64,000 nt of DNA. It comes from Pontibacter pudoricolor (GTDB taxonomy: Bacteria > Bacteroidota > Bacteroidia > Cytophagales > Hymenobacteraceae). Below are positions 8,269 through 64,000 of this stretch, in pieces (position 1 is the stretch's first letter; the number at the start of each line of letters is the position of its first letter). Below the pieces are notes generated by a model. It had not been told where the DNA came from. It worked only from the letters and a program-made list of their open reading frames with translations, and ran no database searches. The position numbers and the translations under genes are program-made. The stretch is from positions 434,001-498,000 of the forward strand of contig NZ_CP048106.1 of NCBI RefSeq assembly GCF_010092985.1, written 5' to 3'.

Positions 8269-9546
8269 CTAAAAAGGAATGAATGGTTTGTTTTTACCTG
8301 CAGGTCCTGGCGTGATAGCATTATCCTGAAGTTTTTGCTGCCACCTGGTAAACTCTGCTACTTCAAGTTGCCTGGTTATAATGCCCGGAATATGAATATT
8401 ATCTGCTACGATAGCGCCTTTTACATCAGAGATATCTCTTCTGTTATCCGGCCATCCCCATGCCATTACACCTACTATGTTATTATCAATAGAGTTTGAA
8501 AAGGTGGTTCCCTTTTTATAATAGTCCAGGCACCAAATACCGGAGGTATACATCGAGAAGCGTTTAGCATCCTTAAAGGTAGCTGCGTTAACTGCTCTGT
8601 TATGGTGGAAACGGATGTTATTTCCGCTGGCTATGCCCATGCTATAGTTGCCGAGGTTAACGAGGTGGTTCTCATAAGCTTCCACGTAAGCCGTACAGGT
8701 TTTTAAATCGCCATCCCCATCCATCAGAATGCCTCCGCCTGAAAAACTGCTGTCGGCAGCGAACAACGGATAAGCGCCTTGTATATAGTTGTTGTGTATC
8801 TGAATAGGCGAAGCAGCTGTGCCCCGCGAATTGTGTATGCTGATGTTATCTTCGACCAGCGAACGGTTTGGTTCGTTAATTACCTGGTTCCACGCAATTT
8901 CGGCATGAGGCAGACTTCCCCGGAAGTTAAACTGAACGAATTGCGAATGTACTGTTCCGGCATAAACTCTGCCATCTATGTTTTTAACCAGGTTATACCG
9001 GATCTTTACTGTTTGGCCTGGTGTGCCGTTTCCGCGGTAATTATCGCCCACGCTTATGCCTGCTGTGCCCTCGAGATAACAATTCTCAACTACCAGGTTT
9101 TTAAAATCATTCAGTACGATAAAGCGCCGCGTTTTAGCAGACCCGGTATAAGTAGTAGGAGAGAGCCCGTAGCCATTGGTGTTCTTTACAGTGATGTCGG
9201 CATTGTGGTACCAGCTCTTTATTAATATACCGGCACTCCGGATATTGGAATCGATGATCACAACCGGCTCGGAGGTCTGAATATCAACGGCCGGAACATC
9301 AGCGCTGGTTGATTCCCAGTTGCCGGTGTAAGTGCCGCCCTTTGTTATAACTATAGGTTGGCTATAGTTCTGAGCCAGCTTTGAAACCGCCTGATCTTTT
9401 CCGAAAGGCCTGAAACTATACGTAGCTATAATGAGGCTGATTGCTATAATAACTATAAGCGCCACCAACAGCCCGCCAACTATAGTTCTATGTTTAGCGG
9501 GCTGGATGGTGTTTTTATCAGCAGCAGCTACGTTGGCATTGCGCAT
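8269..9546 (-). CDS. membrane-anchored right-handed beta-helix protein
   Basis: A 425-residue protein with a short cytoplasmic tail, one membrane helix (about residues 25-46) and then a beta-helix region (about 62-410) that closely matches the N-terminal part of the secreted protein at 3061-6219 (both have VITKGGTYTGNW and EDNI..(F/H)NSRGT). It has no PA14 or T9SS domain. The start ATG overlaps the stop of the upstream GT2 gene by one base (TAATG), which implies translational coupling and places it inside the exopolysaccharide operon. The fold fits a polysaccharide lyase, epimerase or scaffold, acting on the periplasmic side of the membrane. The exact activity is unknown. Confidence 0.8.
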   Translation of the reverse strand: MRNANVAAADKNTIQPAKHRTIVGGLLVALIVIIAISLIIATYSFRPFGKDQAVSKLAQNYSQPIVITKGGTYTGNWESTSADVPAVDIQTSEPVVIIDSNIRSAGILIKSWYHNADITVKNTNGYGLSPTTYTGSAKTRRFIVLNDFKNLVVENCYLEGTAGISVGDNYRGNGTPGQTVKIRYNLVKNIDGRVYAGTVHSQFVQFNFRGSLPHAEIAWNQVINEPNRSLVEDNISIHNSRGTAASPIQIHNNYIQGAYPLFAADSSFSGGGILMDGDGDLKTCTAYVEAYENHLVNLGNYSMGIASGNNIRFHHNRAVNAATFKDAKRFSMYTSGIWCLDYYKKGTTFSNSIDNNIVGVMAWGWPDNRRDISDVKGAIVADNIHIPGIITRQLEVAEFTRWQQKLQDNAITPGPAGKNKPFIPF

Positions 9547-10391
9547 TACTTCAGAAAATAGCCTAAAAGTCGTCGGGTGTACCCGTTCAGTAAATGGTAA
9601 GGAATATATGGAGCAGGGCAGTTTTTGAGCGTAAATCGGGTAAAGTCTCTCAGGTTGCCGCCTCCTTTCAGGTCGAACAGGTGCTTATAGTAGTTTTTAA
9701 GGCTCTTATTGCTACGTAGCTGGCGTTCACCGCTTTCTTCCGGGTAAGTGAGCAACTTGGCATCATAATTTACAAACAGTTCAAAACCTGCTCTTCGGGC
9801 GGTGTGTGTAAAGTCATAATCTGCAATGTAGTGCGGGAACCTATCCTCGTCAAAAAGTCCGATCTTTTCGAACACTACCTTTGGTATCAGAAGTCCTCTG
9901 CCGGGAAGGTGCGTAACGGCATGTAATCCTTTCCGGTTTGATTCCGGCAGATTGGCAAGCACCTGATCTATGGTATTTAGTTTCCAGTTAAGTCTTTCGC
10001 CGCCGAAAATAGGCTGTTTTGTAAAGGCATCAAGCTCCAGCGCGCCAATCAGGGCTTCCGGTTTTTGCCTGTGCCAGTAAATCATTTTCTCGATCAGGTG
10101 CTCGTCTGTTACCACGTCGTTGTTCATGGTCATAAACAGCTCGGATCTTTGTTTAAGAGCATGCCTTAAACCCATATTCACGCCTGCTGTCCAAAACAGG
10201 TTACCATCGCCTTTCAGAATATCCACTTCCGGAAACTCTGTTTTCAGCATTTCTTCTGTACCATCCGTAGAGCCGTCATCAACTATAGTTACTTTATAGT
10301 TTGGGTTGGTCTGGCTTCTCAATGATTTTAAACATTCCCGGGTATGCTCTTTCCTGTTAAAAACAGGGATTACTATATGTATAGGTTTCAT
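9546..10391 (-). CDS. GT2-family glycosyltransferase
   Basis: A 281-residue GT-A fold enzyme. It starts with HIVIPVFNRKEHTRECLKSL, carries the nucleotide-sugar motif VDDGSTDGT (about residues 37-45), an NND metal-binding motif (near 90) and the later PGRGLLIPK and YDF segments common in rhamnosyltransferase-like members. It should transfer one sugar of the exopolysaccharide repeat unit on the cytoplasmic side. It lies 18 bases after the upstream glycosyltransferase gene and overlaps the next gene by one base, so it is in the operon. Confidence 0.88.
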   Translation of the reverse strand: MKPIHIVIPVFNRKEHTRECLKSLRSQTNPNYKVTIVDDGSTDGTEEMLKTEFPEVDILKGDGNLFWTAGVNMGLRHALKQRSELFMTMNNDVVTDEHLIEKMIYWHRQKPEALIGALELDAFTKQPIFGGERLNWKLNTIDQVLANLPESNRKGLHAVTHLPGRGLLIPKVVFEKIGLFDEDRFPHYIADYDFTHTARRAGFELFVNYDAKLLTYPEESGERQLRSNKSLKNYYKHLFDLKGGGNLRDFTRFTLKNCPAPYIPYHLLNGYTRRLLGYFLK

Positions 10392-10409
10392 CGTATCAAA
10401 TAAGTTTTG

Positions 10410-11345
10410 TTAAAGACTGAAGTTGAACAAAGCCTTTAGCTTGGCACTTGCTTTATCGCGCATCATCTTATTAAAGTTGCGGCGGTCAGATTCCACATCC
10501 CGGATCACGAATTTCGGGTGGCGGAGCGGAAATTCGATCTCCTGTTCGTATACCTGTGCCTTTTTATCGTGCAGGTTAAACGTATGGGTCGCATCCTCGC
10601 CAAAGCCTATGTTACGCACCAGGTTTACTTCCGGAACAATGCAAAGGCCTGAGTTACTATAGACGGTAAATTCCCACTGGTAATCCCAGACATCGCCTTT
10701 CTGTATGTTGGTAAATGTCTCTTCAAGCTTGCTTAAGCGGTATGTCTGTTCCAGTTTGTTCAGGAAGATGCCGTTTAAATAGCCTTTGTGCTTCAGCTCC
10801 TGGTAGTTGCCCAGGTTAAAGTCGTATAGTTGCCAGGCGCGGCGCCATGTTGCCCAGCCCCAGCTATTCACTTTATCTGAAAAGTAGTACGAGTAGTCGG
10901 AGTCGCGGCGCCAGCCATCCAGGTAGTTATTGCCACTGATGTGCATTACGCGGGTATCTTTCTTGTATCTTTCAAGCGTCTCCTGGCAAAACCAGAAAAA
11001 GCTTTGCGAAGGAATGCAGTCGTCTTCCAGTATGATACCTGTTTCCTCGTTTTCGAAAAGCCAGGAAATAGAGCGGGAGGGAGCTACGCCACAGCCCAGG
11101 TTTTGGTCCTGGAAAAGCGTTTTAACTTCACAATCCCAGTCAACCTGTTCCACTATACGGCGGGTTTCAGCGCATCTTTCAGCATCGGTGGCAACATGTG
11201 CCCGGGGGCCGTCGGCGGCGACATAAAGTTTTTTAGGTTTAACCTGCCGAATGCGTTCAAATACTTTTTGTGTGGTATGTGCTCTGTTAAATATGATCAG
11301 CAACACCGGAGTGTGCAGCGGTTCTTGCGGTAATGAAGTATTCAT
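10410..11345 (-). CDS. GT-A-like glycosyltransferase of the HlpA-like type
   Basis: A 311-residue protein starting with PVLLIIFNRAHTTQKVFERI and then AADGPR, the N-terminal nucleotide-binding half of a GT-A fold. EDDCIPSQSFFWF (about residues 101-113) supplies the metal-binding acidic residues. Relatives are usually annotated as nucleotide-diphospho-sugar transferases or HlpA-like proteins. Its place between the Wzy-like gene and the GT2 gene, all on one strand with short gaps, supports a role in assembling the exopolysaccharide repeat unit. Donor and linkage cannot be told. Confidence 0.78.
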   Translation of the reverse strand: MNTSLPQEPLHTPVLLIIFNRAHTTQKVFERIRQVKPKKLYVAADGPRAHVATDAERCAETRRIVEQVDWDCEVKTLFQDQNLGCGVAPSRSISWLFENEETGIILEDDCIPSQSFFWFCQETLERYKKDTRVMHISGNNYLDGWRRDSDYSYYFSDKVNSWGWATWRRAWQLYDFNLGNYQELKHKGYLNGIFLNKLEQTYRLSKLEETFTNIQKGDVWDYQWEFTVYSNSGLCIVPEVNLVRNIGFGEDATHTFNLHDKKAQVYEQEIEFPLRHPKFVIRDVESDRRNFNKMMRDKASAKLKALFNFSL

Positions 11346-11382
11346 ACATCAATAAGGGTTTTAGTATATTCTTCTACTGCTA

Positions 11383-12708
11383 TTAATAAGAAGAAGTTGT
11401 GGCTTCTACGGATGATGGAAGCGTACGTTGAGGCAAAAGTCGCCGGGCTTTCATACGCAGACCGGATTCCTTGATAAAACTCATATACGGAACATGTTCT
11501 ACTTCGATGGCAGCAATGGCCCAGCCTAAGATGCCATAAAAGAAAACCGGAAGTACGTAAGAGATCGAAAAAATGAAACTACTGCATATAAAGGCAACCA
11601 GCATGATCTGGTTTATAGTTAGTACCCGTTTCTTAAACGCCTGAACAATAGGATATAAGGCAATAAGCAGGTAAAGTCCAAATCCGACCAGGCCAGTATA
11701 GAAAAAGATCTCTAAATAAAAACTATGGAAGTGGTGGCCGTGGCCGTCTTCAAACACCGGTGCGTCAATGTCATCGCGCCAGAACTGTATTGGCAGTTCA
11801 AACCCATCAAAGCGCATCCCGAAGAAGAAGTTATCCTGTATAAAAGGCATGTAAGACATGATCTGGATATAGCGCCAGCCGCCTGTTCCCTGTTTGTCAT
11901 AGTTCTCTATATCCGAGAAGTTTTCCTGCACTTTTTCGATGATCTCGGGGTGGATGGAAAGTATAAAACCACTGCCAATGACAGCCAGAATACCTACCAG
12001 CGTACCGACAGGAAGCAGCTTGGCTATGAAGTTTATTGGCTTGTCTGTTTTAAGCCTAATCAGGAAATAGTAAACTACCAGTACAAAAGCAGTCGAGATC
12101 CAGACGGTGCGGTGCTGAAAGAAAAAGATGGCGAACAGCACAAAAAAGGACCAGAAAAGGCTCATGAACTTCCCTTTATAAAAATAGTTGCTCATGAAGT
12201 ACAGAAAAGGCACTACCAGCATGTATACTGAAGTAGAATAGACTCCCCGTTCGTGATTTGTAAAAGCCGAGATACTGAGCGTATGTGGCTTAATGAGCAA
12301 TACATTCAACCAGAAACCGATCAGTATAAACCATATCACATGGCTGGTTTTGATATAGTAGTTTGCTTTATAAAAAGTATAGACAAAGAACGTATAGGAA
12401 AAAATGAGCACCTTCACGAAAACGTGCGGGTAAACCATAAAAGTCCCGTAAACATACTTCGATTCGAAAACAAGGCCTGCCACATACAACAGGAGCATAC
12501 AAAATGCAAACCGCATATAAGTAGACATGCGCTGGAAGTAAAACAGGCAGTACATAATAGAGAATACTGCACTACCTTTTACAAGGGTACTCAGCAGGAG
12601 CTCCTGGCCAACAGGATTATCGGGCATAGCCAGCTCAATAAACATGTTATCCATGAAGAGGATAAGTGCCAGGGGAATTACAAAAAGAAAGGAGTAATTC
12701 AGTTTCAT
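11383..12708 (-). CDS. Wzy-like polysaccharide polymerase / O-antigen ligase family membrane protein
   Basis: A 441-residue polytopic inner-membrane protein with roughly ten hydrophobic helices and a large periplasmic loop (about residues 255-340, after the helix LVGILAVIGSGFILSI) before the last helices. This is the layout of O-antigen ligases and Wzy polymerases, which join undecaprenyl-linked units in the periplasm. Sequence is poorly conserved in this family, so the assignment rests on topology and on the neighbouring Wzx, Wzc, Wza and glycosyltransferase genes. The C-terminal tail is basic and low in complexity. Confidence 0.75.
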   Translation of the reverse strand: MKLNYSFLFVIPLALILFMDNMFIELAMPDNPVGQELLLSTLVKGSAVFSIMYCLFYFQRMSTYMRFAFCMLLLYVAGLVFESKYVYGTFMVYPHVFVKVLIFSYTFFVYTFYKANYYIKTSHVIWFILIGFWLNVLLIKPHTLSISAFTNHERGVYSTSVYMLVVPFLYFMSNYFYKGKFMSLFWSFFVLFAIFFFQHRTVWISTAFVLVVYYFLIRLKTDKPINFIAKLLPVGTLVGILAVIGSGFILSIHPEIIEKVQENFSDIENYDKQGTGGWRYIQIMSYMPFIQDNFFFGMRFDGFELPIQFWRDDIDAPVFEDGHGHHFHSFYLEIFFYTGLVGFGLYLLIALYPIVQAFKKRVLTINQIMLVAFICSSFIFSISYVLPVFFYGILGWAIAAIEVEHVPYMSFIKESGLRMKARRLLPQRTLPSSVEATTSSY

Positions 12709-12798
12709 GGTATAACTTAATTTAACAGCTACTATAGTTCACCTTATAAGCTATGCATGTTGTTATACGCATCGTTAGCAGGGTGTAGCGTGTCAGTT

Positions 12799-14325
12799 CT
12801 ATTTGGTGTTTAGTATGTAACTCTTGTATAGTTGAAATGCCCTGCCCGATCGCGTACTCAGCTTATCCGGAAGACCTGTTTTCGACAACATAGCCTGTAT
12901 CTCAGATTTCAGGATCTTGTGCGGGAATAACAGGCTGAGTATTGCTAACAATATAGCTCCTGTTATAACCTGGGCAATTAATATAAGTAAAGGCGCCAGC
13001 GCTGTAGTACGTAAAAAAGAACTGAACAGATATAGTAAAATGCCGATGACAGCACCATTAATTATTCCGGGTAAATAAACGGATAATTGTTGCCTGTACG
13101 GCAGTATCAGAATCTTATGCATCGCCCGCTGATAAAAGAGGGTGCGCACCAGTTCGGCCAGTAAAAACGCCATTGCAAATCCCTGCAAGCCAAAACCTCG
13201 CAACGAGAACATTAATATTCCCAGCACTGATACAAAAACGACATTGAGCACGATCTTAGAATTCAAAGCCGCTTTGGCGTCGCAGATAATTCCTGCGAAC
13301 ATGGTAATTAAGTTTATGGCAACCGCAAAAGACAGAATCTGCAGAATAGGAACCGATTCGCCCCACTGTTTGCCGAGTAACACATAAACCAACTCTGGCG
13401 CTGCTACAAAAATGCCGGCACATGCAGGTATAACCAGGGCTATAACCAGTGTTATGCTGGAGAGGTAAACTTTGCCCAGCTTTTCATTATCAGACTGCAT
13501 TTTGCTGAAAGACGGGAAAATGACTTTCGAGATGGTGCGGGTAAGCATGTACATGGGCAGGCTGACCAGCTTATGGGCCCGGTCGTAAATACCCAGTTTA
13601 TAGTCGCCAAGCAGACGGCCAATCAAAATAGAAGGTAAACTCGCCGAAAACCACTCCAGTAAACTGTTTACAGACATTTTGCTCCCATAGCTGAACAGGG
13701 GCTTCCAGGCGCTCCACTTAAAATGCATTATTATATTATGCCTTACGATGGCATAAGAACTTAGCCCAACTATAGTTGCCTGCGACAACGAAGCCAGTAT
13801 CAAACTATAAACTCCAAAGTCCAGGTAGGCCAGTATAACACCTATGCCCAGGTAAGAGATAACATAAGAGCTTGTTTCGAGGATACTGATTGCTTTAAAA
13901 CGCATGTTGCGCTCCAGTAAACTAAATGCCGTAGCTGACATACCGTTCACCAGGAATGTAAGCGACATAACGCGTACTACCGGGGCTACATCAGGGTTTT
14001 TAAAAAGCTGGGCAGCCAGTGGCGCAAGCGCCCAAACAAGGCCTGTAAAAACAAGGCCCAGCAAAAAAGAAGAGGTAAAGGCTGCGCGTATATGCTCATT
14101 CTTCAATTCCTCGATCTGGATAAGGGCTTTATTAAGGCCCATGTTGGCGAAGTAACCACCAAACTGTAGTATAATGATAGAGATAGCAACTAATCCGAAA
14201 GCTTCAGGATCTAGTAGTCTCGCCATAATAGAGGTATACCCTATCTGCATTACAGCATTCGCTATAGTTGATATGGTATTCCACTTTAGGCCACTGATGG
14301 CCTTTGATGCTAAACTCTGTCCCAT
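12799..14325 (-). CDS. Wzx-type polysaccharide flippase (MOP superfamily)
   Basis: A 508-residue membrane protein with 12-14 predicted helices. The N-terminus (ASKAISGLKWNTISTI) and the segment ARLLDPEAFGLVAISIIILQ are typical of the PST/Wzx branch of the MOP superfamily, which flips lipid-linked repeat units from the cytoplasmic to the periplasmic face. It is the gene after wzc and 90 bases before the Wzy-like gene. The membrane-embedded basic and aromatic residues that set substrate choice could not be assigned. Confidence 0.88.
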   Translation of the reverse strand: MGQSLASKAISGLKWNTISTIANAVMQIGYTSIMARLLDPEAFGLVAISIIILQFGGYFANMGLNKALIQIEELKNEHIRAAFTSSFLLGLVFTGLVWALAPLAAQLFKNPDVAPVVRVMSLTFLVNGMSATAFSLLERNMRFKAISILETSSYVISYLGIGVILAYLDFGVYSLILASLSQATIVGLSSYAIVRHNIIMHFKWSAWKPLFSYGSKMSVNSLLEWFSASLPSILIGRLLGDYKLGIYDRAHKLVSLPMYMLTRTISKVIFPSFSKMQSDNEKLGKVYLSSITLVIALVIPACAGIFVAAPELVYVLLGKQWGESVPILQILSFAVAINLITMFAGIICDAKAALNSKIVLNVVFVSVLGILMFSLRGFGLQGFAMAFLLAELVRTLFYQRAMHKILILPYRQQLSVYLPGIINGAVIGILLYLFSSFLRTTALAPLLILIAQVITGAILLAILSLLFPHKILKSEIQAMLSKTGLPDKLSTRSGRAFQLYKSYILNTK

Positions 14326-14349
14326 TCCCTCAAAAACTGTCTCGTAAAC

Positions 14350-14381
14350 AGAGCTGTAGATGTATTTGACCCTACAGCTCT
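14350..14381. other. hairpin in the wzc-wzx spacer
   Basis: Arms AGAGCTGTAG and CTACAGCTCT enclose a 12-base loop. No T-run follows on the minus strand, so this is more likely an mRNA processing or stability element, or a weak attenuator, than a full terminator. Confidence 0.4.
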
Positions 14382-14407
14382 TCTGGTGTATTTATTAATT
14401 TGCCGTG

Positions 14408-16780
14408 CTATACGTAATAATATTCTGCCTTACGCTTATAGCCATACTCGTAGGTACTGCTATAGTCCAGGTCATTTATAAGCATATAGATGTTCTTGAT
14501 CTTTTTAGCAGCATATAGTTCTTCAATCTGGTGCAGCAGGTCGCGGTTGGTATACTTATGTTTCACCACGTACAGGTTTACATCCATATGGCGCATCAGT
14601 ACAAAATACTCCGAAACAAAACCGATAGGAGGTGTGTCAATCACTACGTAGTCATACTCTTCTTTCAGCTGGTTTATCAGTTGCTGCATTCTTGGCTGTT
14701 CCAGTAACTGCAACGCATTCTCCGGAATTACACCACACGGTATAATGTCCAGGTTCTCGTTCTGTGTTTTCTGAACAACTTCGTGCAGTGGCAGGCCTTC
14801 AGTCAGGTACGAAGACAGACCTACGTTTATAGTATCTTTAAAGTACTTCGTGAAAGTAGGCTTGCGCATATCTGATTCTATAAGCACCACACGTTTGCCC
14901 GATAAAGCCAGCTCGGTACTAAGGTTGACAGAACAGAAGGTTTTACCCTCACCGGATACAGAAGATGTTATACCGATCACTTTAAAGTTGCTGTCAGACA
15001 TCAGGTACTGAAGGTTAATGCGTATCGACCTGAAAGACTCTGCAATAGCTGAGCGCGGCATGTTCTGTACGGCAAGCTTATCTGATTTAGGGCCATGTGC
15101 CACCACGCCCAGGAATGGTATGCTTGTAATGTTGCTCAGGTCATCTTTGCCCTGGATGGTATTGTCAACATTATTCATAAGAATCACAAAACCAGCCGGT
15201 ATAGCCAGACCAATAAGCAGAGCAAGCAGGTAAATCATTTTCGGCTTCACGTTAACCGGCGCATTACCTACCATAGATGCATGATCCACTATCTTTTTGT
15301 CGGTAGTGTTGGTTGCTAAAGCTATAGCTGCTTCGCTGCGTTTTTCTAACAGGAAGTCATATTTCTTAGCTATAAACTCAGACTCATTCTGTAAGTCCAT
15401 AAGTCTGCGCTCATGTTCAGGCAAAGAAGCCAGGTTACCCTCAATTCGGGCTATACGCTGGTTCACATCGTTAATAGAGATATCAGCTGAACGGATCAGG
15501 TTCTTAAGGTTGGCAACTATAGCGCCTCTGGTGTTATCAATCTCCCCTTCAATTTTGCGGAGCATGGGGTTTTCAGCGCTTGCCGTAACACTATAACCTG
15601 CTTTTTTCTGGTTCAGGTCAGCTAACTGAAGGAACAGATCGTTGATGATCGGGCTCTGAATACCGGCTACTGTAGGAGATACTGACTGCGCTATACCGTT
15701 ACCATTCTGCACCTGGTCAAGTATCGTTTCGAAATAAGACTTGTCCGTGTTAAGCTTTGCACGTTCTGCTTCCAGTTGCGACAGCTTCTCGTAGCTGATA
15801 TTTGACTGCACACCTATATTGGCAATGCGGTTTGTAGACCTGAATGATGATAAAGCCTGCTTACTCTGGCGAAGCGAGTCTGTTAGGGTAGCCAGCTGCT
15901 TGTCAATAAACTCCAGCGTCTTCTGACCGTTCAGGTTCTTTTCTTCCAGGTCCCGGGCAACGTATGTTTCCATCAGTTTATTCAGGAAAGCAAGCTGCTT
16001 TTCAGGTATACTTCCTTTTGTTGATAATGACAGCACACGTGCCTCACGCTCGATAGGGGCAACACCTAACGAAGCCTGCTGTTGTTTCACAAGGCTTTCA
16101 AGGCTGTTAATCAGGAAATAATATTCTTTACCCGGTGCCAGGTCTTCTACTTTATTACGCTCCAGTGTAAAATTCAGGAATTCGCTTTTGTACGGCTGGC
16201 CGAACTTAAGCTGCTTTTTAAATTTTACTTCCGGTATCGCTTCAACCACGCTGTGTGTCTTGAAATCATAGCGCGACACTTCTTCAGCTTCAATATTGAT
16301 TTCATAGGTTTTGTCATCCACTACCCGGACAACTATAGGAACATCTACCAACTGATGTGCATTGGTATCCAGGTTTACAGTGTAAGGGGCAGATTCGTAC
16401 TGTTCCTCCACAACAAGGTTTCCTATCTTATTCAGCCAATGGTCAGATACCTTATAATATGCTACCGCAAAGTCAAGGCCCTGAAGTGCTTCTCTGATTA
16501 CCTCAGCTGATTGTATTAATCCTATCTCATCTTCAACTTTGATACCTTTGCTTTGTACCTGTAAAACCTCTAATAGCTCCTGCGCTTTCTTAGATCCGGT
16601 TTGCTGGTCGCCGAGCAGGAGAGTGGCATTGAATTGGTAAACACGCTGCGATGTTTTAACATATACATAAGCAACTGCAAGCGAGATAAGGGCAAAGGCA
16701 GCAAATAAATACCATTTAGACCTAAACTTAAAGAACCAGCTTTTTAAGTCTATTTCGTGACTTTTTTTATTTTTTCTCAT
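14408..16780 (-). CDS. wzc: Wzc-like polysaccharide co-polymerase with BY-kinase domain
   Basis: A 790-residue inner-membrane protein. Order: N-terminal membrane helix (about 24-42) with the Wzz-type fold, a long periplasmic coiled-coil part (about 270-490), a second membrane helix (about 520-545) and a cytoplasmic tyrosine kinase. Kinase motifs: Walker A SSVSGEGKT (about 606-614), Walker A' VVLIESDMRK (about 631-640), Walker B VVIDTPP (about 707-713). The last ~20 residues hold seven tyrosines, the usual autophosphorylation cluster. Cycles of Tyr phosphorylation control polymer length and export together with the Wza protein encoded three bases upstream. The gap of only three bases implies co-transcription. 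Confidence 0.93.
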   Translation of the reverse strand: MRKNKKSHEIDLKSWFFKFRSKWYLFAAFALISLAVAYVYVKTSQRVYQFNATLLLGDQQTGSKKAQELLEVLQVQSKGIKVEDEIGLIQSAEVIREALQGLDFAVAYYKVSDHWLNKIGNLVVEEQYESAPYTVNLDTNAHQLVDVPIVVRVVDDKTYEINIEAEEVSRYDFKTHSVVEAIPEVKFKKQLKFGQPYKSEFLNFTLERNKVEDLAPGKEYYFLINSLESLVKQQQASLGVAPIEREARVLSLSTKGSIPEKQLAFLNKLMETYVARDLEEKNLNGQKTLEFIDKQLATLTDSLRQSKQALSSFRSTNRIANIGVQSNISYEKLSQLEAERAKLNTDKSYFETILDQVQNGNGIAQSVSPTVAGIQSPIINDLFLQLADLNQKKAGYSVTASAENPMLRKIEGEIDNTRGAIVANLKNLIRSADISINDVNQRIARIEGNLASLPEHERRLMDLQNESEFIAKKYDFLLEKRSEAAIALATNTTDKKIVDHASMVGNAPVNVKPKMIYLLALLIGLAIPAGFVILMNNVDNTIQGKDDLSNITSIPFLGVVAHGPKSDKLAVQNMPRSAIAESFRSIRINLQYLMSDSNFKVIGITSSVSGEGKTFCSVNLSTELALSGKRVVLIESDMRKPTFTKYFKDTINVGLSSYLTEGLPLHEVVQKTQNENLDIIPCGVIPENALQLLEQPRMQQLINQLKEEYDYVVIDTPPIGFVSEYFVLMRHMDVNLYVVKHKYTNRDLLHQIEELYAAKKIKNIYMLINDLDYSSTYEYGYKRKAEYYYV

Positions 16781-16783
16781 CGG

Positions 16784-20438: not shown

Positions 20439-20532
20439 TCTGACTGGATTTACAGTTTAAAAGGGCACTGCTAACCTGTAATAGGATCCGAGCAACTATA
20501 GATTAGCCCTTGGGCAAATAACAATGTTGCAA

Positions 20533-51104: not shown

Positions 51105-51126
51105 ATTCCATCAACTATAGAGTATT

Positions 51127-54479: not shown

Positions 54480-54651
54480 CAGTTTTACCTTTTGCCGTTT
54501 TAAACTATAGCCTTTCGCAAAACAACTATACCGACAATTTGGCGCAAACCACAGGATTGGCTTTTTGTTTGAAGATGCCGTAGTTTTACAAACAGCTGCT
54601 GCTACCTATAAACTATAGCCGCAGCAAACTATAACCGTAACAACGCAACAC

Positions 54652-55194: not shown

Positions 55195-55339
55195 TTTAGG
55201 AGGAGTTTTGGAGTCAGAGACAACTTAGCGTGCACGGCTCTTAAGAGCATCTTGTACACCAATGAGGTGATAAACAACTCTTACTTAACCTTATAGCATC
55301 GATTAACGAATAACGGTGAACGAATAACGAAATAAGTCT

Positions 55340-55347
55340 TAACTTTG
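55340..55347 (+). promoter_or_regulatory. possible -7 box of the deoxyhypusine-synthase-like gene
   Basis: TAACTTTG matches TAnnTTTG, 37 bases before the ATG. No clear TTTG was found at the -33 distance. Confidence 0.35.
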
Positions 55348-55384
55348 GGGACCCAGGCAGACCGGTTAAGGTTGCCTTAAGCTA

Positions 55385-56362: not shown

Positions 56363-56374
56363 CACAGTCTAGGG

Positions 56375-56434
56375 TAACCTATAAAACAAAGCGGCTGCAG
56401 GTTTTCACTTGCAGCCGCTTTGTTTTATAGGTTA
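56375..56434. terminator. 60-base inverted repeat, bidirectional terminator
   Basis: Arms of about 27 bases pair with one G-U mismatch around a 6-base loop (outer bases TAACCTATAAAAC). It lies between two convergent genes and overlaps the stop codon of the RNA ligase-like gene. Confidence 0.8.
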
Positions 56435-56983
56435 GCTGATCAGTTCGCGCCGGCCAAACCTGAACTCTTCTTCTTTAAGATAATAATCGCCGCTCTGCTG
56501 CAGAATGGTAATGTTATCGATAGTGACTTCCCAGTTAAAATTATAGTTGCACAGGAACGAAAGCACCGGCCCAAGCATCTCAGGTGTAGTATCACCGAGT
56601 GCAAGTGTAATATGAGGCAGCCACATATTCGGATTATAGTAGACCCCCATTTCGCTGCTCATCTCCGAAATATCGCGGTGCAGTTTTGCATGTAGCTGGT
56701 TTAGGGGCGAAGTGCGCAGCACAGGTATATAAACTACCGGCGTTGGTCCCGGAAAAATGCCCAGCCCGGTAGTACGGATCGTAAAATCAGGCATCTCAAA
56801 ACAGGTTAGCTCCAGGTACTGCTTCAGCTCCTCCATATCCGGTATCTCTGCAGTAAGAATGGTAAGGTGCGGGTATGGAGTTATTTTTACTCCATTAAGC
56901 CCAAACCTGGTCTCAAGCAGTTCTGTAAGTTCACAAACGCGATCGGAGTGAAATTTGTCTAACAGCGAAGTTATCGCGATCAT
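56432..56983 (-). CDS. 2H phosphodiesterase / 2'-5' RNA ligase family protein
   Basis: A 183-residue protein with two HxT motifs, HLTIL (about residue 43) and HITLA (about residue 124), the catalytic pairs of the 2H phosphoesterase fold. Members open or form 2',5'- or cyclic phosphodiester bonds in RNA or nucleotides. The physiological substrate of bacterial members is mostly unknown. It converges with the deoxyhypusine-synthase-like gene. Confidence 0.85.
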   Translation of the reverse strand: MIAITSLLDKFHSDRVCELTELLETRFGLNGVKITPYPHLTILTAEIPDMEELKQYLELTCFEMPDFTIRTTGLGIFPGPTPVVYIPVLRTSPLNQLHAKLHRDISEMSSEMGVYYNPNMWLPHITLALGDTTPEMLGPVLSFLCNYNFNWEVTIDNITILQQSGDYYLKEEEFRFGRRELIS

Positions 56984-57190
56984 AGTTGCCTGTTAAATAA
57001 ATATTTTGCCAACCGGCAAAGGTATGCATTTAAACAACTGCATGTGCTAATGAAACGAGTGCTTACCATAATTGTTTAGCTAAACCTTTTAAAACGCGGC
57101 AACTATAGTTGTTAGTATGGGCCGGCAATAAGTTATATAGTTCACGGTCTTAGGTTTAGCCGGCAGGTGCGCAGTATGGGTTTATTTAAG

Positions 57191-57198
57191 TACCTTTG
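57191..57198 (+). promoter_or_regulatory. possible -7 box of the ABC-F gene
   Basis: TACCTTTG matches TAnnTTTG, with the ATG 24 bases downstream; the -33 element is not clear. Confidence 0.38.
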
Positions 57199-57221
57199 CA
57201 CTTTATAGTTGATTTGATTAC

Positions 57222-59150
57222 ATGATTTCCATAAACAACCTTAGCTTTCATTTTGGCAGCCGCCCGATGTACGACGATGCCAACCTGCACATTCGTCCGA
57301 AAGATAAAATTGGTCTGATAGGCCTGAACGGTACCGGAAAGTCTACGCTGCTGCGCATTATAGTAGGTGAGTACAAACCGGATAGCGGCAGCATCCAAAT
57401 GAGCAAGGAAACCACTATCGGCTTCCTGAACCAGGACCTTTTGAGCTACCAGACCCACGAGAGTATCCTCTCTGTGGCGATGCAGGCTTTTGAAGAAGCA
57501 ATTTACCTGCAGGCGGAAATTGATAAGGTGTTAGTGGAATTCGAGAATAATTTCCATGATAACCTGGTAGAAAAGCTGGCTAATTTGCAGGAGCGGTTTG
57601 AAGCGCTGGGTGGCTATACCATGCAGGCCGAAGCCGAAGCAATTCTGGAAGGCCTGGGTTTTACGACCGAGGAATTGCAGCAGCCACTGGCTTCGTTTTC
57701 GGGTGGGTGGCGCATGCGTGTAATGCTGGCCAAGATACTGTTACAGAAACCATCGCTGCTGTTACTGGATGAGCCTACCAACCACCTGGACTTACCTTCC
57801 ATTAAATGGCTGGAAACCTACCTGGAGCGGTTTGAAGGAGCTGTGATCATCGTTTCGCACGACCGTGAGTTCCTGGACCGCACGACCAATATTACCGTGG
57901 AAGTATCAGGCGCAAAGCTGAATGTATACCCGGGTAACTATAGTTTTTACCTGGAAGAAAAGGCCATGCGAAACGAAATTCAGAAAGGCGCATACGAGAA
58001 CCAGCAGGCCCAGATACGCCAGACAGAACGTTTTATCGAGCGCTTTAAAGCGAAGGCAACAAAAGCGAAGCAGGCACAAAGCCGCATGAAACAGCTGGAA
58101 CGTCTGGAACGCATAGAAGATGTAGCTCCGGAATCAGCGAAAGTAAATTTCAGCTTTAAGTTCAGCGTGCAGCCGGGCCGTCATGTTTTCAGGTTAGAAC
58201 ACATGAGTAAGGCTTTTGGCAACAAGGTTATTTTCCGGGATACGAACGTGCATATCGAGCGCGGCGATAAGATTGCCCTGGTGGGTGCGAACGGTAAAGG
58301 TAAATCTACGCTGCTCCGCATTATTGCCGGCACCGAACCGATACAGGGCAAACGCGAACTTGGTCATAACGTGATCATGTCATTCTACGCGCAGCACCAG
58401 CTGGAATCGCTTAACGTAGATAACGAAATTTTACAGGAACTGCAGCAGGCGGGCTCCAAAAAAACAGAAGTAGAGCTACGTACTTTACTTGGTTCTTTCC
58501 TGTTTACCAGCGATGATGTTTTCAAGAAGATAAAGGTATTGTCAGGAGGGGAGAAGAGCCGTGTGGCACTGGCCAAAACACTGATCTCGGAAGCTAATTT
58601 CCTGATGCTGGATGAGCCTACCAACCACCTGGACATGCAATCGGTTAACATCCTGATTCAGGCGCTGGAGCAATACGAAGGTACCTTTGTGATCATCTCT
58701 CACGACCGTTACTTTGTAGAGAATGTGGCAACCAAGATCTGGTACATCGAAGATTATCAGCTAAAAGAGTACCCGGGCACTTATCATGAGTTTGAGGCTT
58801 TCCAGGAGAAGCGAGAGAAAGAGGCCAAACTACAGGCTGCCGTTGCACCCGCTCCCAAAAAAGAAGAGCCCAAACCAGCCCGTAACAATTCAGAATTTAA
58901 CCAGTTGAGCAACCAGTTGAAGCAGGCCAATAAAAAGCTTAATGAGCTAGAAAAGAATGTGCAGCGCCTGGAGCAGGAACTGGCCAACTACGAGACCGAA
59001 CTGGCTGACCCGAAAGTGTACGGAAATGTAAGCTTACTACAGGAGACCTCTAAAAAGTTTGAATCTGTGCAGAAAGAGCTCGAAAAAGCCAATAGCCAGT
59101 GGGAAGAACAGATGATGGAAGTAGAGGAGCTGGAAGGGAAATTAAGTTAG
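57222..59150 (+). CDS. ABC-F family ATP-binding protein
   Basis: A 642-residue soluble protein with two ABC ATPase domains: Walker A GLNGTGKST (about 35-43) and GANGKGKST, signatures SGGWRMR and LSGGEKSR, Walker B LLLDEPTNHLD and LMLDEPTNHLD. Between them is the charged linker typical of ABC-F proteins (QIRQTERFIERFKAKATKAK). A C-terminal coiled coil (about 560-640) is present, as in Uup-type members. ABC-F proteins bind the ribosomal E site and rescue stalled or antibiotic-bound ribosomes; no membrane segment, so it is not a transporter. Which subfamily it belongs to is not certain. Confidence 0.93.
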   Translation: MISINNLSFHFGSRPMYDDANLHIRPKDKIGLIGLNGTGKSTLLRIIVGEYKPDSGSIQMSKETTIGFLNQDLLSYQTHESILSVAMQAFEEAIYLQAEIDKVLVEFENNFHDNLVEKLANLQERFEALGGYTMQAEAEAILEGLGFTTEELQQPLASFSGGWRMRVMLAKILLQKPSLLLLDEPTNHLDLPSIKWLETYLERFEGAVIIVSHDREFLDRTTNITVEVSGAKLNVYPGNYSFYLEEKAMRNEIQKGAYENQQAQIRQTERFIERFKAKATKAKQAQSRMKQLERLERIEDVAPESAKVNFSFKFSVQPGRHVFRLEHMSKAFGNKVIFRDTNVHIERGDKIALVGANGKGKSTLLRIIAGTEPIQGKRELGHNVIMSFYAQHQLESLNVDNEILQELQQAGSKKTEVELRTLLGSFLFTSDDVFKKIKVLSGGEKSRVALAKTLISEANFLMLDEPTNHLDMQSVNILIQALEQYEGTFVIISHDRYFVENVATKIWYIEDYQLKEYPGTYHEFEAFQEKREKEAKLQAAVAPAPKKEEPKPARNNSEFNQLSNQLKQANKKLNELEKNVQRLEQELANYETELADPKVYGNVSLLQETSKKFESVQKELEKANSQWEEQMMEVEELEGKLS

Positions 59151-59159
59151 GTAGCTGGG

Positions 59160-59700
59160 TTCTATAGTTGGCTATAGTTGCAACCTGAATCAAGTCATCT
59201 TTTCATAGCTGTTTTCAATCCTGGGAGCTTTACTTACTTATCGTTCTATAGTTGGCTTTGGTGCCCTCACGGCCGGGAGGCCCCGTCTTGGGGTAGGGGC
59301 CCTCGATAAGGGCATCGCGCTGCTGCTTTCTTGCTACCCTCGCTCTGCTCGGGTTGCCTTGCGGCACCGCAACAAAGCAAAAGCGCTCAACCCAAAGACT
59401 GAGATCAGTTCGATAGCTATAGTTGCTATAGTTTGAAAGGCTATAGTTACATCGCTTTACCGTGGCTATAGTTCCATAGGGATAGGTCGCGACCTGTCCG
59501 CTCGACAGGCTGTAACTATGGAACTATAAAACAAACTATAACTATAGCAGAAAATTCCCCTCCCGGGAGGGGCAGGAGTGGGTTAAAACCGCAACTATAA
59601 AACGATAGCTTTAACCAGAGTTAATAGCCTAATTCTAAAAATCCATCCATCCTGTGAATCCTGATTCTGACAAATACTGCCCCTGCCGGTACAGTTGAGT
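59160..59700 (+). repeat. intergenic repeat mosaic, copy D
   Basis: Between the convergent ABC-F and M48 genes: a TCCTGGGAGCTTT segment (about 59219), GC-rich core (59257-59406) with an extra 19 or so bases after CCCCGTCTT that breaks the frame, the palindrome with one change (GGATAGGTCGCGACCTGTCC, 59479-59498), and a GGGAGGGGCAGGAGTGGG module (about 59565-59583). CTATAG is frequent around 59160-59540. The modules for AAGGGGGC and AGGGGAAGG seen in copies A and C are missing. The rest of the spacer to 59870 holds no gene. Confidence 0.8.
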
Positions 59701-59871
59701 TGAAACTTAACACCATACAAAACCACAAGTTGAGAACTTACGGGAAAATACAGAACTATAAAACGACTACTCCAACTATAATAACAGGTAATTTCACTCC
59801 CGGCAGGGCAGGCTAACTATACTAGCCTTTTCCATACCTTCCGGAATGACACAGAGACGATACATCATTTA

Positions 59872-59919
59872 TACAAGGAAAGGCCTGACTATAGTTTTAT
59901 AGTCAGGCCTTTCCTTGTA
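59872..59919. terminator. 48-base terminator with a perfect 22-base stem
   Basis: Arms of 22 bases are exact reverse complements around GTTT (59894-59897). It lies 17 bases after the M48 gene on the minus strand, and T-rich sequence is not obvious, so it may also act as an mRNA end-protecting structure. Confidence 0.7.
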
Positions 59920-59935
59920 AACTTGTTCCTGCCTG

Positions 59936-61372
59936 TTATTCTGTAATTACTTTTATCAGCATTCCTTTATCTACTCGGTCGCTGAGCTGCATGCCATTAA
60001 GCACCGCCAGTTCCTCAAGCCTTTTGGTTGGCATACCAAAAGATTGTAATGCCTGTGACAAAGATGCTGCGTTAGCAACAGTTTTAATACGCACACGCTC
60101 CGGTTTTTTATTGATCTTCGACGCATCTGTCAGCTGTTTAAAGTTGGTCATGGTGCCCGAAAAAGTGTTAAAGTAATTATTGAAATCGTTGGCAGTGGTA
60201 ATGCCCATGATACTATAAATGTTGCCGCCATACTGTATAAAATACGTCAGCGTGCCTATAGTTCCCTGCTCCTGTTTCTGTTCGGCAACCATTGCCAGTG
60301 CATTATTTCCGTTCACTGTTACATTTTTCGATTCTACCAGTGTCAGCTTATAACCTTCCAGGGTCTGGCGGGCAGCATCTTCCAGCGAGGTGCCGGGCGC
60401 CAGCGTCAGGTTTATGATCGCCTTGCCGTTTGGCTCAGCCATCTGGAAACTTTGTGGGGAGTTCAGATACTTCCAGCCTTGCGGTATCGGAAACTGGAAT
60501 TTTAACTCCGGATGATAAAATATATGGTTTTCTACAAATCCCTGCTTTGGGTCTTCCCCATACACAATACCATCTATCAGGCGCAGATAAGAGTCGCGTC
60601 CGACTTTCAGGTTCGTCATGTTTAGTTTTTTCTCCCATTGCGCAGCCAGTTCGTGCACGGTAGTGTAACGGTTGCCCGGGTCAGGGTGTGTAGATAAAAA
60701 CTCTGGAATGGCCTGCCCGCTTTCTTCCTGCTTGCGTTTCAGTGTTAAAAAGAAATCGGCCATCTCATCGGCATCGTACCCGATTTTGGTAGAATACTCA
60801 ACCCCTAATTCATCTGACTGCCGTTCATCATCACGACCAAATTTCAGGAAGAGCAAGCCAAGGCCCTGTGAGGCAACATCTCCGAATTGAGCCAGTTCCG
60901 GAGCGATAACCATACCGGCTATTAAGCCTACCTGAGCCAGTATCGATTTACTTTGCTGCTGGGCAGAATGACGCGCTGCTATGTGCCCGATCTCGTGGCC
61001 AAGTACACCGGCAAACTGTGCTTCGTTGTTAAAATGCGCCATAATGCCTCGTGTAAAGTATACATAACCGCCCGGTACAGCAAAAGCGTTAATTACAGGA
61101 GAGTCGAGTACTTTAAAGTTGTATTTGATATTGCTGCGGTGTGAGATGGCAGCCATTGCCTGGCCTTTTTCATCAATAAAGCGCTGTATGGCTGGGTTAT
61201 CGTACATCCCGAACTGCGCCACTATCTGAGGGTCCGCTTCCTGGCCCATCGCCAGTTCCTGACCTTCTGACATCAGTATCACGTCCTTTTTACCTGTTAC
61301 CGGGTTAGTAGAGCAGGAGTTAAAGAACAGCATTATACTGGTTATTAAAACCGTTATCGATAATCTTTTCAT
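59936..61372 (-). CDS. M48-family lipoprotein metalloprotease
   Basis: A 478-residue lipoprotein (FFNSCSTNPVTGKKD lipobox). The M48 catalytic motif is VLGHEIGHIAARHS, with the third zinc ligand in QSDELGVEYS. The middle part resembles BepA/YfgC-type proteases of the outer-membrane quality-control system. The last ~60 residues (TVANAASLSQALQSFGM...LNGMQ) look like a LysM-like region. It likely degrades or folds outer-membrane proteins; no TPR repeats were seen. Confidence 0.88.
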   Translation of the reverse strand: MKRLSITVLITSIMLFFNSCSTNPVTGKKDVILMSEGQELAMGQEADPQIVAQFGMYDNPAIQRFIDEKGQAMAAISHRSNIKYNFKVLDSPVINAFAVPGGYVYFTRGIMAHFNNEAQFAGVLGHEIGHIAARHSAQQQSKSILAQVGLIAGMVIAPELAQFGDVASQGLGLLFLKFGRDDERQSDELGVEYSTKIGYDADEMADFFLTLKRKQEESGQAIPEFLSTHPDPGNRYTTVHELAAQWEKKLNMTNLKVGRDSYLRLIDGIVYGEDPKQGFVENHIFYHPELKFQFPIPQGWKYLNSPQSFQMAEPNGKAIINLTLAPGTSLEDAARQTLEGYKLTLVESKNVTVNGNNALAMVAEQKQEQGTIGTLTYFIQYGGNIYSIMGITTANDFNNYFNTFSGTMTNFKQLTDASKINKKPERVRIKTVANAASLSQALQSFGMPTKRLEELAVLNGMQLSDRVDKGMLIKVITE

Positions 61373-61569
61373 TGTATCATAGTTTATAGTCTAAAGGCTC
61401 TTGCATCAGATAGCTAAATCTTCAAAAACCTATATTCTACTTGCAACGATTATGAAATTGATTAGTTGCAGCAGACCCTTTAATACAACCTGAAACTATA
61501 GTTCTGGCCTGCCTGATACAGCGTTATGGTTAGAAGGTCTGTAGCATTCAAACTATAGTCTATGATACT

Positions 61570-62019
61570 TTAGTTGTTGTCGGAGGTGTACCATTCTGCA
61601 AAAGAGTTTTCTGTTTCCCAGAGCCTTAAACTATACAGCTTTACAGTTGCCGGTAAGTGTCGGGTAAGTGTGTTCTTAAAATCAAGGAGCATGTGCTCGC
61701 AGGTAGGCTGGTACGATGTTGTTACAACTTTATGATGTAGCTGCTGCAATATAGTTAACAACTCAGGCGAAGTACCTTTCCGCAGGATAAGGGAATGGTC
61801 CAGCGGTTCAACTATAAACGTGTTTACTATCTTCTTAAGGTCGCCAAAATCCAGTACCATGCCATATTTCGGGTCTGAAATATCGGTTATGGGCTGGCCA
61901 ATTATAGTTACCTGCAGTTTATAAGAGTGCCCGTGTATATTTTTACACGGGCCATCATAGTTAAGTAAGGCATGCGCCGTTTCGAAGGTGAACTGACGCG
62001 TAAGTCTGATGTAATCCAT
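61570..62019 (-). CDS. queD: 6-carboxytetrahydropterin synthase QueD-like
   Basis: A 149-residue T-fold enzyme. Zinc-binding His are in FETAHALL and NIHGHSYKL, and the catalytic Cys is in GPCKNIHGH; LDHSLIL and CEHMLLDF follow. It makes 6-carboxytetrahydropterin for queuosine (7-deazaguanine) synthesis, or acts as a 6-pyruvoyltetrahydropterin synthase. It starts five bases after the large unknown gene at 62025-63854, so the two are probably translated from one mRNA. Confidence 0.88.
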   Translation of the reverse strand: MDYIRLTRQFTFETAHALLNYDGPCKNIHGHSYKLQVTIIGQPITDISDPKYGMVLDFGDLKKIVNTFIVEPLDHSLILRKGTSPELLTILQQLHHKVVTTSYQPTCEHMLLDFKNTLTRHLPATVKLYSLRLWETENSFAEWYTSDNN

Positions 62020-62024
62020 TAATG

Positions 62025-63854
62025 TTAAGCTACTGCTTCTGCTCTTCTCAGTTGGGCCTGTAATAACACATCTTCAGCTTCCAGTAACTCATCCAGCATT
62101 AGCACCTGGCGCTCCAGCTGGTTTCTGAATAGCTCCGGTAAAAGCTGCTTGTAATAAGTAATGCCGTCCTGCATGTTCTGCCAGAAATTGTTCAGGTATT
62201 TTTCCTGCTTGTCTGTCAGCGTTTCAAACTGTTCCGTTTTTTTATTCTTCCAGTAGTCTACATACATTTTAAGTTCGTTAATGAACATATGCGGACGGTA
62301 GGTCTGGTTAAGCGCGTTAAATCGACCATAAATATGATCGACCATTTCGTGCAGTTTGAATACACCTGAGAAAAAGGCAAGGTTCGGTCCCGGGCATATG
62401 GTTACAGCTTTGGTTGCCGCTTTCTTGCCGATGTTAAATATTTGCAAAGCAGAGTTTGCCAGGCCTTCGCATAAGCATTCTTTGGCCAGCACGCTTTCTT
62501 TTTGAGCCTTGTATAGTTCAGGAGTTAAAACCTGCGTGTTTAACTGCTCATCGAGTTGCTCTAACTTGCGGCGCTGGTATTTACGCGATGCCGTGCAGAT
62601 CGCTTCTTCAGTAAATTCGGTATTTGAAACCAGGTGCTTTTTAACGCAAGGGCTGCCAGGCTTATCTTTATCGATGCGCATCTGTTTCAGCTCTTCGCTC
62701 GATGTACCGCGCAGGGCGTTAAATGGTACGCCTAACGGCGATATCGGGCTTAGGTAAAGGTCTTCTGCTTTGGCATCGGATAGTTGCTTTAAGGTCGGCT
62801 CGTCCACAGTGGTTGCTTCCGGTACCAACAGGAAAGGAGTTCCCCAGCCGGTGGCATCCATGCCATAGTATTCCTGTAAAAAGTCGTGCTCTGCTGCTGT
62901 GCCAATCCCGCCCTGCATGGTAATGAGTTGTGTTGGAATCTCTCCCGGAACATGAATGCCTTTACTTGCCAGCGCCGAACTGAACAAACTATAAAGCTCT
63001 GACTGTAGTGCCTGGCGGTTCTGCTTAAACTCTTCCAGTATCGGGCCGATCAGGTAACCATCCGTAGCAAAAGCATGTCCACCACAGTTTAACCCGGACT
63101 CTATTCTAAACTCAGATACCCAGATACCTTTTTTAGCCAGTATTTTACCCTGCACCAGCGCCGAGCGGTAATCACTTACTTTAATGATCACCGTCTTCTC
63201 AAAATGGCCTTTGGCATCCGGCAGAAAACACGGGAACTGTTCCAGGTAAGCAAATAAACGCATGTTCATCCCCGCCGAGAAAACAACGGATGAGTTAACC
63301 GTGCTGTTGGCAAACCCGCGCAAAGCCGCCAGCGCATCCGAAAATTCCTGTGGCAACGCTTCCCCTGATTTGCTATAGTTTGTCCTGTCCAGTTTGGTCA
63401 TGATGTTTACGTCAATTCTGCCGGGTACCAGCGCATTGCGTAATTCGGTTTGCAACAGGTTTTTATGCTCCGTATCTGAAGTTTCCAGCATCTGGTTATA
63501 GCGCGCTCTTAACGGAGAGTTATCAGGTAACAGGTTAAAGTATTTGGTAATTTCCGATTCCGGTGTAAACTCCTGCATCCTTAACTCTTCCATTTGTGTC
63601 TTCACGATCTCATCCACAAGGTTCAGGAAAGCAGTGGTGCGTTTGGCTCTGTAGTCTTCCTGCTTGTCAGTAATTGGTTCGTAAGGGCGGTTGTATACCT
63701 GTGCGTAATGCGAGCGGGTGTGCTCCAGCAAGGCATCGTCGCTGAGCGAAGCCACAGACGATATTCCGAAGCGGGCCACCTTAATAGGCGAATCAATAGA
63801 AAAAGCAAGCCCCATTACAGGCAAATGAAAGTTGTGCGGTGTAGTTAGTTGCAT
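62025..63854 (-). CDS. large protein with nitronate-monooxygenase-like barrel and Cys motifs, function uncertain
   Basis: A 609-residue protein that I do not confidently recognise. It starts FHLPVMGLAFSIDSPIKVARFGI. Residues about 230-380 contain GLNCGGHAF, DGYLIGPILEEF, TMQGGIGTAAEHDFL and ATGWGTPFLLVPE, reminiscent of the FMN-binding barrel of nitronate monooxygenase-like enzymes. Residues about 415-510 hold five Cys (SPCVKK, AICTAS, ECLCEG, ICPGPN) that could bind iron-sulfur or zinc. The C-terminal ~110 residues are helical. It is coupled to queD by a 5-base gap, suggesting a role in pterin or deazaguanine metabolism (inference). Confidence 0.6.
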   Translation of the reverse strand: MQLTTPHNFHLPVMGLAFSIDSPIKVARFGISSVASLSDDALLEHTRSHYAQVYNRPYEPITDKQEDYRAKRTTAFLNLVDEIVKTQMEELRMQEFTPESEITKYFNLLPDNSPLRARYNQMLETSDTEHKNLLQTELRNALVPGRIDVNIMTKLDRTNYSKSGEALPQEFSDALAALRGFANSTVNSSVVFSAGMNMRLFAYLEQFPCFLPDAKGHFEKTVIIKVSDYRSALVQGKILAKKGIWVSEFRIESGLNCGGHAFATDGYLIGPILEEFKQNRQALQSELYSLFSSALASKGIHVPGEIPTQLITMQGGIGTAAEHDFLQEYYGMDATGWGTPFLLVPEATTVDEPTLKQLSDAKAEDLYLSPISPLGVPFNALRGTSSEELKQMRIDKDKPGSPCVKKHLVSNTEFTEEAICTASRKYQRRKLEQLDEQLNTQVLTPELYKAQKESVLAKECLCEGLANSALQIFNIGKKAATKAVTICPGPNLAFFSGVFKLHEMVDHIYGRFNALNQTYRPHMFINELKMYVDYWKNKKTEQFETLTDKQEKYLNNFWQNMQDGITYYKQLLPELFRNQLERQVLMLDELLEAEDVLLQAQLRRAEAVA

Positions 63855-64000
63855 TGTAATTTGGTTATATAAAAACCATAGTGTTGCTGGTTAATAAGTG
63901 CAGCAACTAAACTATAGTTGGTTATGGATACACGATAAGCGTGCCGCAAGGTATGTAGCAACTTGCCAGTTATAAATGAGCAGCATCAGCCCAAAAAATG

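Follow-up and report, generated by a model that had tools for sequence, protein, structure and literature searches.

The window analyzed here is a 64-kb stretch of the Pontibacter pudoricolor genome (G000:C1:434001-498000; the genome, G000, is a single contig of 4.34 Mb), and its genes and spacers alike contain copies of a short word, TATAGTT. Counted on both strands (TATAGTT or AACTATA), this word is found 220 times in positions 1..64000, and two overlapping units of it make up the 10-base palindrome AACTATAGTT. The palindrome occurs 19 times, always as an exact match, at 9478..9487, 10281..10290, 13768..13777, 18595..18604, 25768..25777, 27504..27513, 28078..28087, 32211..32220, 35594..35603, 35878..35887, 43611..43620, 45758..45767, 47316..47325, 51868..51877, 56317..56326, 57101..57110, 57936..57945, 61494..61503 and 63910..63919. 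The initial annotation had listed 17 of these copies correctly and missed those at 45758 and 57936; its estimate that chance would give well under one copy per 64 kb agrees with 100 dinucleotide-preserving shuffles of the window, which yield a mean of 0.09 and a maximum of 1. The inner hexamer CTATAG is the top-ranked 6-base palindrome of the window, with 119 copies compared with 15.6 expected under an order-1 model, but it does not usually take the 10-base form, as had been claimed: both arms are present at merely 19 of the 119 sites, one arm at 84 and no arm at 16.

The enrichment extends beyond the window. A whole-genome count, which had been named beforehand as the refuting test, does not refute it and gives 1164 copies of AACTATAGTT compared with 8 of the reversed word. 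In a 564-kb sample of the genome, which was used also for the statistics on reading frames, densities and spacers (genes being the longest open frames), TATAGTT exceeds the expectation of an order-1 model 17-fold, CTATAGTT 41-fold and TTATAGTT 16-fold. Genes and spacers are enriched alike, the palindrome exceeding an order-2 model 158-fold in DNA predicted to be coding and 132-fold in noncoding DNA. Within the genes, 47 of the 65 coding 10-mers are read as T-I-V and 18 as N-Y-S, in agreement with the peptides TIV and YS noted earlier, and the third frame, which would include a TAG stop, is empty.

The word is not spelled in the same way throughout the genus Pontibacter, to which a protein search, with four Pontibacter species as the closest named matches, assigns the genome. 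A k-mer comparison between relatives shows that many genomes without TATAGTT have the same core with a different arm. Whole-genome counts of AACTATAGTT, AAGTATACTT and AGGTATACCT in 50 Pontibacter genomes, each assigned to a dialect by its largest 10-mer count with an arbitrary threshold of 80, sort all 50 into 7 with mainly AACTATAGTT (GTT dialect), 20 with AAGTATACTT (CTT), 12 with AGGTATACCT (CCT) and 11 with none, the reversed-word controls ranging from 0 to 15; G073, G052 and G038 lie barely above the threshold (82 to 88) and G115 (59) lies below it. The TATA core is constant and the arms differ by single bases (TATAGTT, TATACTT, TATACCT), CTT being one base away from both GTT and CCT. 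The counts of the GTT, CTT and CCT forms are 1164, 28 and 10 in G000, 1477, 18 and 11 in G119, 10, 259 and 9 in G023, 2, 8 and 171 in G121, and 6, 5 and 8 in G002, and there are mixed genomes, namely G033 (330, 80 and 20), G058 (232, 120 and 26) and G043 (104, 183 and 22). Outside the genus, where AACTATAGTT and AAGTATACTT were counted in 100 other genomes of the family (AGGTATACCT was counted within the genus only), AACTATAGTT reaches a maximum of 8, and the highest counts of AAGTATACTT, a mild excess, are in two genomes of the same other genus (23 compared with 3 reversed in G014 and 19 compared with 5 in G029). No origin of AACTATAGTT comparable to that in this clade was found elsewhere among 390 genomes of the order. 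The next highest count in the order, 46 compared with 12 reversed, a mild excess, is in G349, from another family.

The dialects follow the clades. The tree is built from at most five genes, with 25 to 52 of the 52 taxa for each, and is without support values; only its local clades are used because the root is unreliable, the two outgroups falling apart on long branches. In this tree, the GTT genomes form one group adjoined by G043, the CCT genomes form one group beside the CTT genome G103, the CTT genomes are scattered, and the word-less genomes appear in several places; in a smaller, earlier tree, the group from G033 to G119 has a support of 1.000. Because CTT is scattered and the GTT and CCT genomes are each grouped, CTT is probably the ancestral spelling. 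Some old sites are visibly re-lettered in place. Of 214 alignments of CCT sites to CTT genomes, 42 show TATACTT, compared with 5 of 1281 inside the CCT clade; CTT sites aligned to GTT genomes show TATAGTT in 23 of 239 cases, and TATAGTT sites aligned within the GTT clade show TATACTT in 19 of 2809. In all of these counts, the genome pairs share ancestry and are not independent. In these counts, as in those of conservation and polarized change below, sites in gaps or unaligned DNA are dropped.

What is enriched is a 7-mer, asymmetric and with sharp limits of recognition. In pooled samples of the GTT dialect, the intact 7-mer is enriched 18.4-fold and words with any single-position mismatch 0.3- to 3.6-fold; in the CTT pool, the 7-mer is enriched 12.9-fold and the one-mismatch words up to 4.6-fold. 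The two arms of the palindrome can be judged separately when sites in which both are fully mismatched serve as the baseline. A site with one perfect and one fully mismatched arm is then enriched 11.9-fold in GTT, 15.5-fold in CTT and 17.2-fold in CCT (a pool of 11 genomes), one mismatch in the better arm, again with the other fully mismatched, reduces this to 1.6-, 2.1- and 2.0-fold, and both arms perfect give 206-, 54- and 110-fold. Because a single perfect arm suffices, a mismatch in it removes most of the effect and both arms together reach such high values, as the GTT figures show, the palindrome is best understood as a pair of overlapping units on opposite strands, each of them strand-specific. 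The initial annotation had likened the word to HIP1 of cyanobacteria or to an uptake or methylation-linked motif. A genome-wide word far above composition is indeed what is found, but a strictly palindromic unit of the HIP1 type is ruled out, given that one arm suffices and that the base favored before TATA in the CTT dialect (T) and in the CCT dialect (C) is not the G that a palindrome would call for. Taken as a 10-mer, AACTATAGTT tolerates deviation at the outer three positions and not in TATA.

Individual sites are kept between species. From G000 to G097, TATAGTT is retained at 299 of 396 sites (0.755), compared with 1259 of 2507 (0.502) for permuted words, and to G117 at 130 of 186 (0.699), compared with 401 of 1312 (0.306); the Fisher p values, 1e-21 and 2e-24, respectively, treat sites as independent. 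The difference holds in coding DNA only (169 of 222 compared with 849 of 1786 controls, to G097). When changes are polarized by an outgroup, losses amount to 145 of 728 compared with 896 of 3064 for controls (ratio 0.68) and gains to 27 of 944 compared with 727 of 56260 (ratio 2.2); for the 10-mer, 22 of 70 are lost and 4 of 120 gained, with controls (0 of 2 and 0 of 32) too sparse for use. Purely gain-biased mutation is ruled out because losses are also below the control rate, and the pattern fits a weak force for the word, acting through selection or biased conversion. At the level of codons, a comparison already suggested in the initial annotation, amino acid identity at motif codons is close to that at other codons in G097 (588 of 631 compared with 35333 of 37646), G117 (292 of 330 compared with 20569 of 22927), G043 (25 of 29 compared with 2270 of 2636) and four CCT genomes, for which 13 to 19 motif codons apiece could be compared, and is lower in G018 (32 of 47 compared with 2932 of 3250) and G058 (42 of 52 compared with 3495 of 3918).

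The density of the 7-mer is 1.85 per kb in genes compared with 6.94 per kb in spacers, where the palindrome reaches 0.73 per kb; convergent spacers hold 10.8 copies of the 7-mer per kb, co-directional ones 6.3 and divergent ones 5.0. A promoter element is rejected, since the density upstream of starts, 4.5 to 8.0 per kb over the first 300 bp, does not peak clearly. Genes without a counterpart in the nearest relative's stretch carry about a third of the usual number of sites: in one 164-kb region, the 104 genes aligned to the G097 stretch have 226 sites in 115,236 bp (1.96 per kb) and the 16 genes without a counterpart 10 sites in 16,878 bp (0.59 per kb), a density that does not change when two genes at unaligned ends are left out (8 sites in 13,479 bp, 14 genes), whereas control words are twice as dense in the counterpart-less genes (0.34 compared with 0.17 per kb). 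As a separate observation, TATAGTT density is 12.1 per kb in the first 25 bp past stop codons, compared with ~6 to 8 per kb in most later bins.

The simplest alternative, that codon usage, base composition or the copying of intergenic repeats produces the word in passing, could invoke the many copies held by repeat modules and the ATA isoleucine codons used by the genic word, but the controls refute it and it can be practically dismissed. The reversed word is at background, the 158-fold excess is that of coding DNA taken by itself, and in a pool of 8 of the 11 word-less genomes of the genus the three arms are just 1.9- to 2.4-fold enriched. Furthermore, in every dialect pool ATA stands most often between a T and the dialect's own arm, which is not the case in the word-less pool.

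In the best explanation of these findings, the word consists of TATA and a three-base arm (GTT, for which sister clades have CTT or CCT), A being disfavored at the position just before it, and AACTATAGTT would be the local dialect of a genus-wide self-recognition word, with a Chi-like word as the first guess; the probability of this reading is put at about 0.4, and it overlaps with the uptake alternative discussed below. Enrichment in genes and spacers, site-by-site conservation, the low level in counterpart-less genes and the dialects all fit a word read by a core machine. The force would be weak and uniform, ~2.5 scaled-selection units per site (the natural log of ~12-fold), and would be exerted by a conserved reader of the word, to which DNA that carries it counts as self. 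If such a reader changed its specificity, old sites would decay and new ones accumulate, which would produce mixed genomes like G033, G058 and G043. The doubling over two strands acts like two separate events, most clearly in GTT, and thus favors a strand-specific reader, for instance a nuclease that reads Chi or an enzyme that methylates DNA. The machine may be a repair enzyme of the AddAB/RecBCD type that recognizes a Chi-like word, a first guess made because the word is asymmetric, sharp and strand-specific and because such an enzyme is core machinery whose specificity is able to drift. Even so, a Chi-like reader appears somewhat unlikely; some other DNA-binding or biased-repair process is a real possibility that falls short of being probable, an uptake-like reader working without type IV pili looks improbable, and a methyltransferase more improbable still.

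A methyltransferase, orphan or part of a restriction-modification system, with a HIP1-like site kept through methylation-dependent repair (the Elhai model) would account for the sharp, enzyme-like recognition in the arm test, and an asymmetric 7-mer is a suitable target for some types of methyltransferase. In the GTT dialect, TTATAGTT (16.5-fold) is second to CTATAGTT (45.6-fold), which is what one would expect if a methylated first C decays, but there is no G-to-A excess at the arm G in the GTT clade (TATAATT 33, TATAGCT 49 and TATAGTC 43, unpolarized). The density of the palindrome in spacers is close to the value of about one per kb in the Elhai model, but that of the 7-mer, 6.9 per kb, exceeds the saturation expected under it. 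The search for a cognate enzyme, envisaged in the initial annotation, yielded strong PF02384 matches in G000, but in none of four Pfam families a strong methyltransferase match common to all the carriers tested. PF01555 has no match in G000, G097, G117, G119, G058 and G121 and PF00145 none in G033, G043, G093, G101 and G103 (12 genomes searched for each), the PF00145 proteins of G000, G097 and G117 being at most ~26% alike. PF02086 has matches in 6 of 24 genomes and none in G000. For PF02384, some match is present in all 24 genomes, but strong ones are missing in the carriers G103, with only a short partial match, and G043 (best E 2e-15), and the short partial match, in frames of ~300 amino acids, occurs in carriers and in the word-less G095 alike. 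According to the published account of cyanobacterial HIPs (PMC4390886), HIP1 and its alternates accompany cognate methyltransferases. The Pontibacter word resembles them as a genome-wide iterated palindrome with a frequency far above Markov expectation, one-base deviations mostly at the outer bases and another word in some lineages, but differs in that its unit is not palindromic, the replacement words share a core, and no strong carrier-wide methyltransferase is seen in the four families. On balance, a methyltransferase origin is quite unlikely.

One C5-methyltransferase with Vsr-like and ATPase-like neighbors, found in G000, G119, G018 and G058 (58 to 84% alike), was dropped as a cause because G097 and G117 have C5-methyltransferases with no relation to it at that level. 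In G000, its gene is split over two frames (G000:C1:3032606-3033757), with the Vsr-like and ATPase-like genes, named by eye, adjoining; its relatives in G119, G018 and G058 are in a single frame. Elsewhere in G000, three adjoining frames, the first of which is a C5-methyltransferase (G000:C1 ~3010755-3015027), contain zero copies of the word, in line with a recent acquisition.

Formally, the closest match among systems with known dialects is the DNA uptake sequence (DUS) of Neisseriaceae, accumulated by biased uptake and recombination; in Pontibacter, the receptor would have to be other than a type IV pilin. By the published description (PMC3630211), the DUS shares with the Pontibacter word very many copies, a short constant core (CTG, compared with TATA), a changing flank, dialects that follow the clades and some word-less genomes; unlike the DUS, the Pontibacter unit is 7 bp long, its palindromic doubling is over-represented, and no type IV pilus ATPase was found. 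The lack of strand bias, the enrichment in spacers, the absence from several lineages and the presence of ComEC in 50 of 50 genomes agree with uptake; ComEC, however, is equally present in the 11 word-less genomes and does not discriminate. A two-sided site would not be expected to count double in uptake, and yet it does in the GTT dialect. No full-length match to the pilus or type II secretion ATPase (PF00437) was detected in 50 genomes, with at most 31 candidates scored in each (31 of 41 in G000); those scored gave just short matches, near profile positions 117-176, barely over the cut-off in 3 of the 50. A pilus or type II secretion motor is thus probably missing, which makes type IV pilus-based uptake unlikely. 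Uptake through another receptor is a doubtful explanation.

Several observations weigh against a self-recognition word with a Chi-like reader. No reader has been found; for AddA/AddB, pattern scans of sampled DNA gave one unconvincing match in the first scan and none in the second, with no genome-wide search made. The CCT dialect is less sharp, with 28.8-fold enrichment for the 7-mer and up to 7.2-fold for one-mismatch words, and in two of the three dialects the enrichment of the doubled site falls short of multiplicative. To sustain a 17-fold enrichment at equilibrium, larger effects than gains of 2.2-fold and losses of 0.68-fold would be needed; the force may once have been stronger, or the ratios may be blunted by parsimony and the choice of controls. 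Most old sites are lost or kept rather than re-lettered in place. Known Chi words are G-rich, and the Pontibacter word, unlike them, is A+T-rich. With the sign of GC skew as a proxy in 26 stretches, the orientation of the word is unbiased, the G-rich strand having 757 copies and the C-rich strand 816 (336 and 369 for the non-palindromic units alone), unlike that of Chi in Escherichia coli; the same counts rule out polar words such as the FtsK-guiding KOPS. Moreover, sites are dense in intergenic repeats, whereas Chi is reported (PMC8022716) to be rarer in repeats, so that the lack of polarity and the density in repeats speak against a classical Chi. By the same account (PMC8022716), the Pontibacter word resembles Chi in being short, asymmetric, sharp, over-represented, variable between lineages and commoner in shared than in lineage-specific or acquired genes, and differs from it in these three respects of polarity, composition and repeats.

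It is also well conceivable, if short of even odds, that the word is bound by a chromosome-structuring protein or another abundant DNA-binding dimer, or is the product of mismatch repair or gene conversion biased by a context preference. Dyad symmetry with half-sites that add up, similar enrichment of genes and spacers, and fewer losses with more gains, as under any weak uniform drive, are consistent with such a process, but one mismatch removes most of the enrichment, where binding proteins usually grade, and no candidate has been identified.

The intergenic repeats are mosaics of several hundred bp, in the window at ~40354-41176, 44223-45109, 51101-51877 and 59147-59937, and also in many spacers elsewhere. 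They share modules, for example the GGACAGGTCGCGACCTGTCC dyad and the CGCTCAACCCAAAGACTG module, with TATAGTT often between the modules. Five module words have matches in samples of G000, G097, G117, G119, G018 and G033, and one module dyad each was seen in G069 and G038, the samples being of unequal size. Two further features of the window are the strong depletion of CTAG throughout it (25 compared with 238 expected from dinucleotides) and an open frame of 1052 amino acids at 3061-6219 with three similar repeats of ~150 residues each, which presumably resemble the PA14 domain.

Genome-wide words with dialects are already known, as uptake sequences in Neisseriaceae and Pasteurellaceae and as Chi-type hotspots. 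The initial annotation knew of no description of the present word in this group, and none was found in the open-access literature, searched with limited terms, for a genome-wide dialect word in Bacteroidota; the string AACTATAGTT is absent from the literature searched (the 7-mer strings were not searched), and no matching description of CTATAG as a genomic palindrome turned up, judged by title and abstract start. Tentatively, the word might represent a new self-recognition system of Bacteroidota, in which a core reader that involves neither type IV pili nor a dedicated methyltransferase would impose a 7-base word and two changes of specificity, from CTT to GTT and from CTT to CCT, would each have been followed by genome-wide rewriting.

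Because one genus holds three spellings, mixed spellings or none, the reader should be mappable by genome comparison, and the speed with which a genome is rewritten after a change of specificity is measurable in Pontibacter. If the word indeed guides recombination or uptake, the dialects would be barriers between Pontibacter clades. Under the tentative reading of a new self-recognition system, the genus would offer a bacterial counterpart of PRDM9-style turnover that could be traced step by step in 50 species.

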